Below the pieces are notes generated by a model. It saw only the letters and a list, made by a program, of their open reading frames with translations. It had not been told where the DNA came from and did not search any database. Positions 7,594 to 31,600 of a stretch of 38,477 nucleotides of DNA are shown here, piece by piece. The first letter of the stretch is position 1; each line of letters starts with the position of its first letter. The position numbers and the translations under genes are program-made. The DNA comes from Lentisphaerota bacterium (GTDB lineage Bacteria; Verrucomicrobiota; Kiritimatiellia; PWTM01), in assembly GCA_016873715.1 (NCBI GenBank), contig VGWF01000030.1, positions 1 through 38,477 of the forward strand, given 5' to 3'.

Positions 7594-8551
7594 ATTGCAC
7601 CCGGGCTGCGGGCACGAGACGCTCCGCGCGTGGCAGGCCGACGGGCCGCCCGCGGCGGACCGGCTCGTGTGGCCGCTGTTCGTCACCGACCGCGACGACG
7701 CGTGCGAGCCGATCGCCGCGATGCCGGGACAGCACCGGTGGGGCGTCGGACGGCTTCGCGAGGCGCTCGACGGGCCCGTCCGCAACGGCCTCCGCGCCGT
7801 GCTGGTCTTCGGGGTGCCCGGCGGGGCCAAGGACGGCCGCGGCTCCGGCGCCGACTCGCCCGGGTCGCCGGCGGTGCGCGCCCTCGCCGCGCTGCGGGAG
7901 GCCTACCCGGGGCTGCTCCTGATCGCCGACGTCTGCCTCTGCGCCTACACCGACCACGGGCACTGCGGCATCCTGCAGTCCGACGGCACGGTCGACAACG
8001 AGGCCAGCGTCACGCGCCTCGCGGCGGTCGCCGCCGCCTACGCCGCGGCCGGCGCCCACGTCGTGGCGCCGTCGGACATGATGGACAACCGCGTCGCCGC
8101 GATCCGCGCCGCGCTGAAGACCGCCGGCTGCGGCGGCACCGCGATCCTCAGCTACGCCGCCAAGTTCGCCTCGTGCTTCTACGGCCCCTTCCGCGACGCC
8201 GCGCAGTCGCGGCCCGCGTTCGGCGACCGCCGCGCCTACCAGCTTCCGCCCGCGGGGCGGCGGCTCGCGTTGCGGGCCGTCCTCCGCGACGTCGACGAGG
8301 GCGCGGACCTCGTCATGGTGAAGCCCGGCGGCCCCTACCTGGACATCGTGCGCGAGGTGCGCGACGCCGTCCGCGTGCCCGTCCTCGCCTACCAGGTCTC
8401 CGGCGAATACGCGATGCTCCACCACGCCGCCGCCGCGGGCGCGTTCGACCTGCGGACCGCGGTGCTCGAGTCGCTCGACGGCCTCCACCGCGCCGGCGCC
8501 GGCGCCGTCATCACCTACTTCGCGCCCCAGGCGCTGGGATGGGTGCGGTGA
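7580..8551 (+). CDS. hemB: Porphobilinogen synthase (delta-aminolevulinic acid dehydratase)
   Basis: The 323-residue enzyme joins two 5-aminolevulinate molecules into porphobilinogen. The Schiff-base lysines are K195 (SYAAKFAS) and K248 (VMVKPGGPYLD). The cysteine triad of the zinc-dependent type is present in DVCLCAYTDHGHCG (C119, C121, C129). Length and motifs are normal, unlike the two shortened enzymes before it. The start overlaps the hemCD stop by 14 bases and the end overlaps hemL, so translation is probably coupled. Confidence 0.95.
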   Translation: MNRVELHPGCGHETLRAWQADGPPAADRLVWPLFVTDRDDACEPIAAMPGQHRWGVGRLREALDGPVRNGLRAVLVFGVPGGAKDGRGSGADSPGSPAVRALAALREAYPGLLLIADVCLCAYTDHGHCGILQSDGTVDNEASVTRLAAVAAAYAAAGAHVVAPSDMMDNRVAAIRAALKTAGCGGTAILSYAAKFASCFYGPFRDAAQSRPAFGDRRAYQLPPAGRRLALRAVLRDVDEGADLVMVKPGGPYLDIVREVRDAVRVPVLAYQVSGEYAMLHHAAAAGAFDLRTAVLESLDGLHRAGAGAVITYFAPQALGWVR

Positions 8552-27439: not shown

Positions 27440-28453
27440 TCAAACCCTCGGCCCGAACGGCCGGAGCTCGCGGAGCCCCGGAACGGCCGCGCACAGCGCC
27501 GGCCCGGAGGCGGCTTCGAACAGGAGCTTGAGGTTGGGGCCGGCATCCATGGTGAACCAGACCGGGATCCCGTCGTCGCGCAGCCGGGCGATCCGCGCCA
27601 TCGCATGCAGCGATTCGGGCAGCCAGTAGAGCACCGCCGGGCGCGCCGCGGCCGCCGTGGCATGCATGGCCATCGCGTTGCCCTCGGCCGCCGCCCCGAG
27701 CGCCGCCAGGTCGCGCGCGGCAATCGCCGGCTCCACGGCGGCGAGGTCCCCCGCGACGACGGACGGCCAGCCGGCGTACAGGGGCGAGGTCCCGACCGTC
27801 CGCAGCATCCCCTCGCGCGACCCCGTCGCCTTCGGCCGGTCGCTCACGACCCACAGCCCGACGCGCAGGTCCGGCCACTCGACGCCGAGCGGCTCGCCGC
27901 GCGAGTCGGAGCCGTCCGCCGCGACGCCGGCGCGCCAGCGGACGAAGCCGTCCCACAGCGACCGGCACGCGCTGCCGCTGCCGAGGCGCGCGAGCACGGA
28001 CAGCGAGGCCGCGTCGAGCCCCCAGCCGAGCAGGCCGTCCAGCGCGCGCACGAGCGCCGCGAAGCCCGAGGCCGACGACGCGACGCCCGCCGCCGTCGGC
28101 ACCGTGTTGACCGAATCGACCGCGAAGCCCGGGCAGGCGGGCGACCGGAACAGGTCGAGGAACCGCGCAAGGCGCGCCGCCTCCGGCGCGGCCGGGTCGA
28201 CCGCCCCGCCGTTCAACCGGAAACCGTCGCGCTCCGCCGCGGCGACGGTCGTCCGCGTGCCGGCGTCGCCCAGCGACACCGAAAGGCTGTCCGTCACGGG
28301 CAGGTTCAGGTCCGCGTCGCGCTTGCCCCAGTACTTCACGAGGGCGACGTTGGCCGGCGCGGTCGCCGTCGCCGGCGAGCCGGGGCGCGCGGCGCGGCCC
28401 CGCAGGACGGCCCCGACGGCGGCGCGGCGGCGGTCGGTCCCGGAGAGGCTCAT
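27440..28453 (-). CDS. mvaD: Diphosphomevalonate decarboxylase
   Basis: The 337-residue GHMP-family enzyme turns mevalonate diphosphate into isopentenyl diphosphate. Diagnostic stretches are ALVKYWGKRD, LPVTDSLSVSL, PTAAGVASSASGFAAL, GSGSACRSLWDGFVRW and MDAGPNLKLL. ATG 28453 overlaps the upstream kinase stop as ATGA, indicating a coupled pair for the lower mevalonate pathway. Confidence 0.93.
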   Translation of the reverse strand: MSLSGTDRRRAAVGAVLRGRAARPGSPATATAPANVALVKYWGKRDADLNLPVTDSLSVSLGDAGTRTTVAAAERDGFRLNGGAVDPAAPEAARLARFLDLFRSPACPGFAVDSVNTVPTAAGVASSASGFAALVRALDGLLGWGLDAASLSVLARLGSGSACRSLWDGFVRWRAGVAADGSDSRGEPLGVEWPDLRVGLWVVSDRPKATGSREGMLRTVGTSPLYAGWPSVVAGDLAAVEPAIAARDLAALGAAAEGNAMAMHATAAAARPAVLYWLPESLHAMARIARLRDDGIPVWFTMDAGPNLKLLFEAASGPALCAAVPGLRELRPFGPRV

Positions 28454-29373
28454 GCGACGGTCTCCACGACGAGGCCCTCGGCCCCGACCGACACGGCGAT
28501 CTCCTTCCGCTCGGGATCGAGCCGGGACGGACGCCCGAGCGCGACGACGCAGTCGCCCAACCCCGAGCCCGAGATCTTCGCGCCGAGTACCGCCGGATCC
28601 GCCCGCAGCGCGTGGACCAGGCCCGACAGCGTCGCGTCGCTCACCCCGATCGCGTCCATCAATCCCTGCGCCACGTTCATCAGCGCGCCCACGCGCGTCC
28701 AGTTGGCCTGCTCGACCGCGGCCGTCGCCTCCTCGGCGACGCGGTTCATCGCCTCGTAGACGGCGTTGAACACCGCCGGCATCGCGGCCCGCGAGGCCTC
28801 GACGCGGCGGATGACCTCGGGGGTCGGCGTCTTGTAGCCCGCGTAGACCAGCGTCACCGGCGGCGCCTGCGCGATGCGGCGGATCGCAAGCGGGTCGGCG
28901 CGGTACGCGACGACGCCGCCGAACACGCTCGCCGCGGCGTCCGCGCCCGAGCCCGCGCCCTGCACGCCCCGGATCACGTCGCGTGCGATCCGGACCAGCG
29001 CCTCGCGGGACGGCGTCCGCCCCGCGTGCGCCGCGAACGCCGCGAGGCTCGCGACCGTCACGGCGGCCGACGAGCCGAGGCCGACCGTGGACGGAAACTC
29101 GGACTCGATCCGCAGATCGAACCCGCCGGGGAGCGAAGCCGCCTCGCGCGCGAGCGAGGCCAGGACGAAGCGGAAGGGCTCGGACGGCACGGGCGCGTCC
29201 AGCGTCATCTCGTGCCGCCCGAGGACCGACCCGATCGTGACGTGGCGGTCCGCCCGGGGCGAGAGCGTCACGGTCAGCCGCGCCGACGCCGCGCACACCA
29301 GCGCCCGCTTGCCGTGCAGCACGGCGTGCTCGCCGAACAGCATGAACGAACCCGGGGCCGATGCGCGTATCAT
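28450..29373 (-). CDS. Mevalonate kinase-type GHMP kinase
   Basis: The 307-residue kinase has the N-terminal GHMP motif SAPGSFMLFGEHAVLHG, the ATP loop STVGLGSSAAVTVAS and the C-terminal GAKISGSGLGDCVVAL. The front resembles mevalonate kinase. GAGSGADAAASVFGG and GYKTPTPEVI recall phosphomevalonate kinases, so which of the two phosphorylations it performs, or whether it does both, is open: no second kinase is present here. The -10 element lies directly before the start codon (see promoter). Confidence 0.82.
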   Translation of the reverse strand: MIRASAPGSFMLFGEHAVLHGKRALVCAASARLTVTLSPRADRHVTIGSVLGRHEMTLDAPVPSEPFRFVLASLAREAASLPGGFDLRIESEFPSTVGLGSSAAVTVASLAAFAAHAGRTPSREALVRIARDVIRGVQGAGSGADAAASVFGGVVAYRADPLAIRRIAQAPPVTLVYAGYKTPTPEVIRRVEASRAAMPAVFNAVYEAMNRVAEEATAAVEQANWTRVGALMNVAQGLMDAIGVSDATLSGLVHALRADPAVLGAKISGSGLGDCVVALGRPSRLDPERKEIAVSVGAEGLVVETVA

Positions 29374-29409: not shown

Positions 29410-29488
29410 CCCCCACCCGCCCCGATCCTCGGCGAAGCCCGGACGATCGGGAACGCACGAAGCTACGGGGCCTCGCGACCGGCGCCGA

Positions 29489-29587
29489 CGGAGCGGCGCC
29501 CTCCAGAGCCAGCCATTCGCTCGCATCCCCGTCGGAGCGGCGCCCTCCAGCCCCACCCCCTGGCATCTCCAGGAACGGAGCCTGGAG
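29489..29587. repeat. Direct 18-bp repeats and hairpin in the 514-base intergenic region
   Basis: CGGAGCGGCGCCCTCCAG occurs at 29489-29506 and again, identically, at 29533-29550. A hairpin follows: CTCCAGG (29567-29573), loop AACGGAG, CCTGGAG (29581-29587). The region 29374-29887 carries no credible gene; besides the operon promoter at its left end these repeats are the only structure I see. Confidence 0.7.
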
Positions 29588-29887
29588 GACCGGGCCCGGC
29601 CGGCCACCCGACGCGAAACGGCGCGGGGGCGCGGCCGGATTCCTGCGTGCTTCGGACGGATCGTGCCCGCGCAGGGCGCGCCTGGCCGCCGATCGGGAAC
29701 CCGGCGTCCGGGTTGCACGCGCGATGCGGGGAGTGCATCGTCCCCTCCAGCGGAGGAACTCAGGGCTGATGAGCCGACGCCCGGCCATGCTTGCGGCGGT
29801 CGCGACGGGGCCGATCCGGGTCGCCTTCCGCCGCGGCACCACGGCGGACAGGGGTAACCGGTGCGTCGAACGGGAGGTCTTCGGCAG

Positions 29888-31600
29888 ATGAACGGGACGG
29901 GCGATGCGCGGGACTTCCCGATGCCCCCCGGCGCGGCGGCGCTGAACCTGCTGGGGGTCGACTACGCGCACGTGAAGACGGGCGACGGTGGCGATCTCTA
30001 CCTCACGCGATTCGGCGCGCCGTTCGCCGAGCACCTCAAACCCGAGTCGTGGTTCGAGCCGGGCTGGTTCGAACGCAACCGCGAGAAACTGGAGGGGACG
30101 AGCACCGTCTACCGCGTCCGCACGCGCCCCCTCGGCGGGCGCAGCAAGGACATCGTCGTGAAGTGGTGCCGCGTGGGCACGGAGATCCCGGTGGACACCT
30201 TCACGCTGACGAAGTTCGTCGAGGCCGAGTTCAACAGCCCGTACGAGGAGTTCTCGCTGGTGATGGAGATGCGCGCGGACCGATCGACGCCGCGCGTCCG
30301 CACGCACAAGCCGCTGGCGATCTACGTCCCGGCGAAGAAGTTCAAGCCCTGGCAGATCCGCCGCGTCGAGTCGAAGATGGAGCGGATGAAGGCCAAGTTC
30401 CGCGACGTCGAGCTCGACATCTTCCGCCAGTACATCCTGATCTACGAGTGGGTGAAGGGCGTCTCGCTGCCCGAGGCGTTCCTCGCGATGCCCGGGTCGA
30501 TCGACGAACGCCGCGCCCAGATCCGGCGTCTCGCCGGGGAGGGCGTCGGCGACCTGGCGGAGAAGGGATTCCGCGTCCTCGACATCAAGCCGGAGCACAT
30601 GATCGTGCGGCCGCGGCCGCCCGCGGATTTCCTCCGCCGGCGCGACGGGCGGATCGCCTACGCGCTCGTCGACTTCGAGCTGCTTCAGCGCACGCCCGAG
30701 CACGAGAGCGCCGTCGCTTCGGCGCGGCGCGCCGCCTATCTGCGGCACCAGAAGGACCGCTTCGCGGCGCCCTCGTCCGTGCCGCTCCCCCCGCACCTGA
30801 GGGCGGCGAGCGTGTTCGGCATCGACTACATCTGCGGGCACACGGAGAGCACGGGCGGCGAGCTGTGGGTGGTCGGCCGCGATCCCGAGCTCTTCGATTA
30901 CTTCCTGCCCGAGCGGTGGCGGCGGACGCCGCGCGAACGCCTGTCCGACGCGCGCGAGGTCTGGAAGACGCGCACGAAGGACCAGGTCAACCTTGTCTGG
31001 AAGGTCTCGCGCGTCGGCGAGGTGCCCGAGCCCGACCCGGCCGGCCCCCGCGCCGCGCGCATCCGCGAGCACGGCTTCAACAGTCCGTTCGAGGAGTTCG
31101 AGATCGCCCTCCGCCTCGCGCGCGACGGCGTGCCGGTCGTCTACCCCCGCGCCATCTACATGACCGGCCAGGAGGCGGCCGGCGCCGCGGCCTATGCCGC
31201 CGACACCCGCCGGTACGACCGCGACGCGGCGATCCCGGGGCCCGACGGACGCCCCGCCCTGCGCCGCGACCACAACTACATCACCGTGTGGGGCTACTGG
31301 AACGGGGCCGACGAGACCCTCGCCACGCGCGATGTCGCCGTCTGCTCGCCCCTCAGCCTCGCCCGCGCCCTCGCCGGGGGCCGCGTCACGGCGGCCGAGC
31401 ACGACGCCCTCCTCGCCGGCGCCGCCGAGGCCCTCGCCCGCGCGGGCTACGAGGACCTCAACCTCGGGGGCGGCCACCTGCTGCTTTCCGTGCCGCCGCA
31501 GGGCGGCTTCCTGCTCGGCGACGACGGCCGCCCGGTCGTGCGCTGGTGCAACTTCAGCCTGATGCGGGCGCGGGCCACGGCGTCAACGCCCGCGGCTTGA
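29888..31600 (+). CDS. Tandem protein-kinase-like/pseudokinase-like protein, unrecognised family
   Basis: The 570-residue soluble protein is an internal duplication. Half 1 (about 14-275) has VVKW (K92), FNSPYEEF (115-122), a hinge-like ILIYEWVKG (183-191), a catalytic-loop-like LDIKPEHMIV (D232, K234) and VDFE (D262), matching the order VAIK, helix-C Glu, hinge, HRD..N and DFG of protein kinase folds. Half 2 (about 300-560) repeats FGIDY, VWKV (K372), FNSPFEEF (397-404), ITVWGYWNG, then EDLNLGGGHLLLS and NFS (555-557), where the catalytic residues are lost. I infer an active lobe joined to a pseudokinase. Substrate and family are unknown; a sugar or lipid kinase of the LPS-kinase type is possible. 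ATG 29888 follows GGGAGG; the GTG at 29861 is an alternative. Confidence 0.75.
   Translation: MNGTGDARDFPMPPGAAALNLLGVDYAHVKTGDGGDLYLTRFGAPFAEHLKPESWFEPGWFERNREKLEGTSTVYRVRTRPLGGRSKDIVVKWCRVGTEIPVDTFTLTKFVEAEFNSPYEEFSLVMEMRADRSTPRVRTHKPLAIYVPAKKFKPWQIRRVESKMERMKAKFRDVELDIFRQYILIYEWVKGVSLPEAFLAMPGSIDERRAQIRRLAGEGVGDLAEKGFRVLDIKPEHMIVRPRPPADFLRRRDGRIAYALVDFELLQRTPEHESAVASARRAAYLRHQKDRFAAPSSVPLPPHLRAASVFGIDYICGHTESTGGELWVVGRDPELFDYFLPERWRRTPRERLSDAREVWKTRTKDQVNLVWKVSRVGEVPEPDPAGPRAARIREHGFNSPFEEFEIALRLARDGVPVVYPRAIYMTGQEAAGAAAYAADTRRYDRDAAIPGPDGRPALRRDHNYITVWGYWNGADETLATRDVAVCSPLSLARALAGGRVTAAEHDALLAGAAEALARAGYEDLNLGGGHLLLSVPPQGGFLLGDDGRPVVRWCNFSLMRARATASTPAA

Follow-up and report, generated by a model that had tools for sequence, protein, structure and literature searches.

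The locus described here raises the question of what a bacterium does with one gene that carries two kinase-like halves, only the first of which appears equipped for catalysis. The window, that is, the whole stretch of 38,477 nucleotides analysed, contains one gene in which a kinase-like domain occurs twice, one copy after the other; the catalytic residues are intact in the first copy and have been lost from the second in nearly every relative (Table 1). The reading best supported by sequence comparison and modelling is that domain 1 is an ATP-dependent phosphotransferase to which a pseudokinase is fused. For the whole of our preferred explanation, a soluble two-domain protein-kinase-like enzyme in which an active domain 1 is joined to a pseudokinase that controls it or presents its substrate, we estimate a probability only slightly better than even, roughly 0.55.

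The frame listed in Table 1 was accepted as the gene because relatives align with it over nearly their full length at 44-64% identity, and a long antisense ORF was ruled out on the same grounds. The predicted protein is soluble, with no transmembrane-like stretch, and its own genome has a single copy of the tandem gene. A sigma-70-like promoter and an intrinsic terminator were looked for at the gene and neither was found.

Table 1. Features of the tandem gene and its predicted product (coordinates within the window).
Feature	Coordinates	Strand	Basis
Tandem kinase-pseudokinase gene, 570 aa plus stop	29888..31600	+	ORF with homologs in other genomes over residues ~13-563, 44-64% identity
Shine-Dalgarno-like GGGAGGT, ATG 9 nt downstream	29872..29878	+	Direct reading
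Domain 1 (residues ~15-291), kinase-like, catalytically equipped	29930..30760	+	AlphaFold model, PDB fold matches, Hanks profile match
Domain 1 N-terminal extension (residues 18-67), family-specific, precedes glycine-rich loop	29939..30088	+	Shared by both halves and the single-domain genes
Glycine-rich-loop-like segment LEGTSTVYRV (residues 68-77)	30089..30118	+	G70 in 27/27 first halves, 7/8 single-domain genes, 1/27 second halves
K92, beta-3 lysine	30161..30163	+	35/35 first halves and single-domain genes
E121, helix-C glutamate (FNSPYEEF)	30248..30250	+	35/35
Catalytic loop VLDIKPEHMIVR (residues 230-241), with D232 and H237	30575..30610	+	D, K, P and H each 35/35; aligned with DLKPxN loop of Hanks kinases
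DFE motif (residues 262-264) at the place of DFG	30671..30679	+	D 35/35, E 35/35
Domain 2 (residues 299-570), pseudokinase	30782..31597	+	Homologous to domain 1 (99.8%), catalytic residues lost
Domain 2 N-terminal block (residues 309-352, SVFGIDYICGHTESTGGELWVVGRDPELFDYFLPERWRRTPRERL), best conserved long part	30812..30943	+	Mean column identity 0.75, against 0.62 in domain 1 counterpart
K372, domain 2 beta-3 lysine, retained	31001..31003	+	K 23/27, R 3, E 1
Domain 2 catalytic loop, degenerate, N525-LGGG-H530	31460..31477	+	Asp 1/27; His 26/27
Domain 2 DFG region, degenerate, R552-W-C554-N555-F-S	31541..31558	+	Asp 0/27 (N 26, T 1); Arg 25/27, Cys 25/27

Of 193 related genomes, 41 carry the family: 33, the window included, have the tandem form and eight (L035-L042) have a single-domain gene resembling domain 1. 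A sample of 289 genomes from the phylum gave 20 matches, of which 19 came from the class that the window belongs to. One lone tandem member (L003) comes from a record labelled Candidatus Omnitrophota, its own genome being the only one with a match among 193 sampled from the phylum of that record, and represents either a transfer or a mis-binned contig. No relatives were found on viral contigs, and no separate domain 2 was found in the genomes with a single-domain gene. In another relative (L034, 7461-9172) a frameshift, real or due to assembly, falls at the domain boundary; this locus was rejected as a natural two-gene form, since no start codon occurs in the second frame until locus position 8405, which lies inside domain 2. 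The residue counts given here refer to 27 tandem copies, with both halves counted, and the eight single-domain genes; those out of 35 combine the 27 first halves with the eight single-domain genes.

A preliminary description of this DNA had quoted a series of motifs, in similar order, from the two halves, and all of these are present: FNSPYEEF (115-122) and FNSPFEEF (397-404), LLGVDY and VFGIDY, VVKW (K92) and LVWKV (K372), LDIKPEHMIV (231-240) and LNLGGGHLLL (524-533), and VDFE (261-264) and CNFS (554-557). Profiles of the two halves matched each other at 99.8% in hhalign (E 3.3e-28, P about 1e-30) over 240 columns. When this was repeated on the final alignments the score was 213, while none of the 60 column-shuffled profiles exceeded 22.5 and a reversed profile scored 13.6. 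With a single sequence as query, BLASTP was already enough to link half 1 with the second halves of relatives, at E about 1e-8. Judged by these comparisons, domains 1 and 2 are homologous and are products of duplication. A maximum-likelihood tree built from 62 domains separated the first halves, the second halves and the single-domain genes, each by a single branch, with support of 90, 100 and 93, respectively. Because this tree is unrooted and half 2 forms a long branch, it is compatible both with an origin of the tandem from single-domain genes and with an origin of the single-domain genes by loss of domain 2.

Domain 1 has the motif order of the protein-kinase-like (PKL) superfamily, from the GTSTVY loop through K92, E121 and the LDxKPxH loop to D262-F-E. 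K92, E121, D232, K234, H237, D262 and E264 are invariant in the 27 tandem copies and eight single-domain relatives, and the series K92, E121, D232-x-K234-P235-x-H237 and D262-F-E264 has the order and spacing found in protein kinases, with F263 varying in 2 of 35. Ten key residues have been defined for the superfamily: K72, E91, D166, D184, N171, H158, H164, D220, G52 and P104 (Kannan et al. 2007, PMC1821047). The K72/E91 pair is present as K92 and E121, and the catalytic D166 and metal-binding D184 as D232 and D262, in all 35 sequences. G70 and P142 hardly vary; that they correspond to G52 and P104 is a reading of the alignment only. D220 has no counterpart, too little sequence lying beyond the DFE motif. 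The N171 position is occupied by His in 35/35, that of H164 (the HRD His) by Val, Ile or Met, and H158 is His in 2/35. The replacements at N171 and at the HRD His are unusual among active kinases and were counted against our preferred explanation.

Searched as a single sequence against Pfam, NCBIfam and PDB, the 570-residue protein gave no match, and no match of the family passed the cut-off in Pfam or NCBIfam, in agreement with the earlier statement that the protein belongs to no recognised family. Scans with single members gave weak Pfam matches, to ABC1 in 13 members (best E 9.6e-5) and also to Pkinase and Kdo. The best match to ABC1/UbiB (PF03109) scored 22.1 bits, under the cut-off of 22.9, and the matches inspected in detail spanned the hinge to DFG and stayed below this cut-off; as the KxGQ motif of UbiB is also absent from the protein, membership of this family was rejected. 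It should be noted that the ABC1 profile is not specific in these genomes, where many weak partial matches to it, again in that stretch, come from other frames that resemble ordinary kinases. The Hanks profile (PF00069) reached E 0.032 at best, in 2 of 35 members and under the cut-off, and both HRD and APE are absent from the protein. Among the profiles proposed earlier as a check, those of lipopolysaccharide kinases (Kdo/WaaP, PF06293) gave only a weak match below cut-off, in one member of the 35 (E 0.018), with an hhalign probability of 43% against local Kdo kinases; RIO, Fam20 and APH, and choline kinase as well, had no Pfam match among the members at E up to 5.

The ABC1/UbiB match, together with the invariant His in place of the metal-binding Asn and the missing HRD His, would fit an ATP-using PKL enzyme that is not a kinase, carrying out AMPylation or glutamylation or acting as an ATPase of the UbiB kind, and divergent PKL families with activities other than kinase are known (PMC10870513). 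We consider this unlikely. The equivalents of D166, K168, D184, K72 and E91 are all retained, as in phosphotransferases, and the ABC1 similarity is confined to the hinge-to-DFG stretch, lacks KxGQ and involves an unspecific profile.

Other comparisons point to protein kinases. The profile of domain 1 matched one of Hanks kinases from related genomes at 94.8% (P 5e-8; score 62.9, as against a shuffled maximum of 24.2), the ArgJ control giving 0.1%, and the first-half profile also found a Hanks kinase at E 3.8e-6. Against PDB, the top matches were the twitchin and CaMKII kinases, on the hinge and catalytic loop, at E of at least 0.24. An AlphaFold model of domain 1, made from eight alignment rows (both halves of four proteins), was confident (pLDDT 81, pTM 0.80). 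With this model Foldseek returned protein kinases for all of its best 50 PDB matches (E 3.6e-5 to 4.5e-4, probability 0.99-1.00), at TM scores of 0.30-0.38, which indicate that the kinase core is recognised and that global superposition is weak. The full-length model, from four sequences, had a pLDDT of 44.6 and was unusable. The kinase likeness that the preliminary description had read in LDIKPEHMIV and VDFE of the first half, one part of its interpretation, is thus supported by motifs, by profiles and, as far as the core is concerned, by the predicted fold.

In the model, only a single helix lies between DFE and domain 2. The usual protein-substrate subdomain (helices F-I) would therefore be missing, and a small-molecule or an unusual protein substrate is possible. 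Domain 1 could accordingly be conceived as a small-molecule kinase resembling choline kinase, APH or lipopolysaccharide kinase in function, with domain 2 as a non-regulatory half that binds substrate or has a structural role. The lack of room for helices F-I, the solubility of the protein and the position of a single-domain gene before the metabolic gene argJ in one family are consistent with this, as are the DFE motif and the Thr/Ser in the glycine-rich loop, both of which recall the choline-kinase/FadE group (PMC1821047). In that group, however, Arg replaces the beta-3 Lys, which is Lys in 35/35 here; APH, choline kinase and RIO gave no Pfam match at E up to 5, and the gene neighbours do not come from a single pathway. 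We regard a small-molecule kinase of this kind as conceivable but doubtful.

The preferred reading, of a kinase with a pseudokinase partner, depends also on domain 2. The catalytic Asp, found in 35/35 first halves and single-domain genes, is kept in only 1 of 27 second halves, and the DFG Asp, likewise 35/35, in none of the 27 (N 26, T 1). The Asp-to-Asn changes noticed earlier in the window protein are thus general to the family. A Lys-to-Gly change noticed alongside them is indeed present at residue 527, but is peculiar to this protein, the family having K in ten copies, R in six, E in four and others besides. The loop glycine is lost in 26/27, and the helix-C Glu is present in 26/27. Domain 2 is therefore a pseudokinase, as had been proposed, in the sense of a kinase-homologous domain from which at least one of the beta-3 Lys, catalytic Asp and DFG Asp has been lost.

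Constraint is evident on both domains, with a different distribution in each. Mean column identity in domain 2 is lower than in domain 1 in the catalytic loop (0.62 vs 0.80) and at DFE (0.60 vs 0.86), whereas 17 of the 46 columns of its N-terminal block are nearly invariant, more than in domain 1. R552 and C554, just before N555, are conserved residues new to domain 2, each in 25/27. That domain 2 might be a functionless, degenerating copy could be argued from its missing catalytic residues, from its lower median pairwise identity (0.49, against 0.54 for domain 1) and from the genomes that have domain 1 only. Such a copy would hardly be expected to remain full length and conserved in many families, as half 2 is across all 27 aligned tandem copies, with a nearly invariant block and a new RxCN motif, and we consider this very improbable. 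Domain 2, having lost its catalytic residues and yet being conserved, appears to be a maintained pseudokinase rather than debris, kept for something other than the usual kinase catalysis.

In the mechanism that we favour, domain 1 most likely binds Mg-ATP, with a K92-E121 salt bridge and D262 and H237 as metal ligands, and D232 would be the catalytic base in phosphate transfer. Domain 2, which stems from the same duplication as domain 1, is without the glycine-rich loop and the aspartates needed for catalysis and metal binding; the likeliest origin of the pair is an ancestral homodimer whose two partners were fused, one of them now dead. Domain 2 would pack against domain 1 and either control its activity or present substrate, probably via the conserved N-terminal block; by analogy with eukaryotic tandems such as JAK, domain 2 may regulate domain 1. 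A point against this mechanism is that eight genomes have domain 1 alone, which implies that domain 2 is unnecessary for catalysis as such. A bolder and quite tentative version has domain 2 as a ligand sensor that switches the kinase in cis through a retuned pocket, comprising the conserved K/E pair, H530, R552, C554, N555 and the LWVVG..P.LFDYF.PERW.RT block; a new PKL family would then have arrived on its own, in bacteria, at a counterpart of the control seen in JAK.

No neighbour is conserved across the family so as to point to a pathway, which also counts against the favoured mechanism, and those that recur do so locally. The window gene is divergent from a GHMP-family kinase gene, which with a gene reading like diphosphomevalonate decarboxylase occupies 27443-29373 on the minus strand; the two look like mevalonate-pathway genes. 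The window gene is followed by a TIM-barrel gene and by a pair of ABC transporter genes. Three genomes of the window's family have a nitroreductase-like gene upstream. The single-domain genes of one family (L038, 8771-9976, and L039-L042) directly precede an argJ-like gene (ornithine acetyltransferase), and rplM- and rpsI-like genes lie upstream of the single-domain gene in four of these five.

The preliminary description had also drawn attention to a 514-base repeat-bearing region before the gene. A 30-nt repeat is indeed present there in two copies (29485-29514 and 29529-29558), but its link to the gene did not hold: an 18-mer from it has 82 exact copies genome-wide (none for the reversed control), so that the repeat is dispersed and not a feature of the tandem gene. 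The core of the dispersed repeat, CGGAGCGGCGCCCTCCAG, often forms small tandem arrays with a spacing of about 99-230 bp, for example in L177-L180, and several arrays are followed by an inverted partner, CTGGAGGGCCGCGCTCCGTCGCGGCC, making long hairpins possible.

Both the PKL superfamily and kinase-pseudokinase tandems are already known. Our verdict is that the present proteins form a new PKL family with a kinase-pseudokinase tandem, which, like its residue pattern, was not found in the libraries searched (no match over a Pfam or NCBIfam cut-off) and may be listed in KINtaro. The family adds an unlisted PKL group with an unusual active site (DxKPxH and DFE) and appears to be a conserved bacterial kinase-pseudokinase fusion. 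Since single-domain relatives occur in neighbouring genera, nature provides both forms for comparison, and the contribution of a dead kinase to a live partner could be studied with them. In the open-access PMC literature that was searched no bacterial tandem of this kind was found, those that turned up being from animals and plants only. The bacterial pseudokinases ActPs1-3, GLW, CP1, DYD and DLHK resemble domain 2 in being bacterial domains with degraded catalytic motifs, but those families are of Ser/Thr-kinase type, and the word 'tandem' is absent from the text of the review that describes them (PMC12599244).

Compared with Hanks-type Ser/Thr kinases, the family has the same motif order, D-x-K-P-x-x loop and DF motif, and these kinases gave its best profile and fold matches. 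It differs from them in having no HRD His, His for Asn171, DFE for DFG and a long N-terminal extension, and in being without an APE activation segment, room for helices F-I or a Pfam match over the cut-off. ABC1/UbiB gives the best Pfam match of family members, but the N-lobe is different, in addition to the sub-threshold scores of the members shown and the absent KxGQ motif. In JAK the pseudokinase precedes the kinase, whereas in this family the kinase comes first and the pseudokinase second. What the family has in common with JAK and with plant tandem kinase-pseudokinase proteins such as wheat WTK1/Yr15 (PMC6170490) is that a single polypeptide holds both a kinase and a pseudokinase. Unlike these, it is bacterial, both of its domains belong to one separate PKL family, and its C-lobe is minimal.
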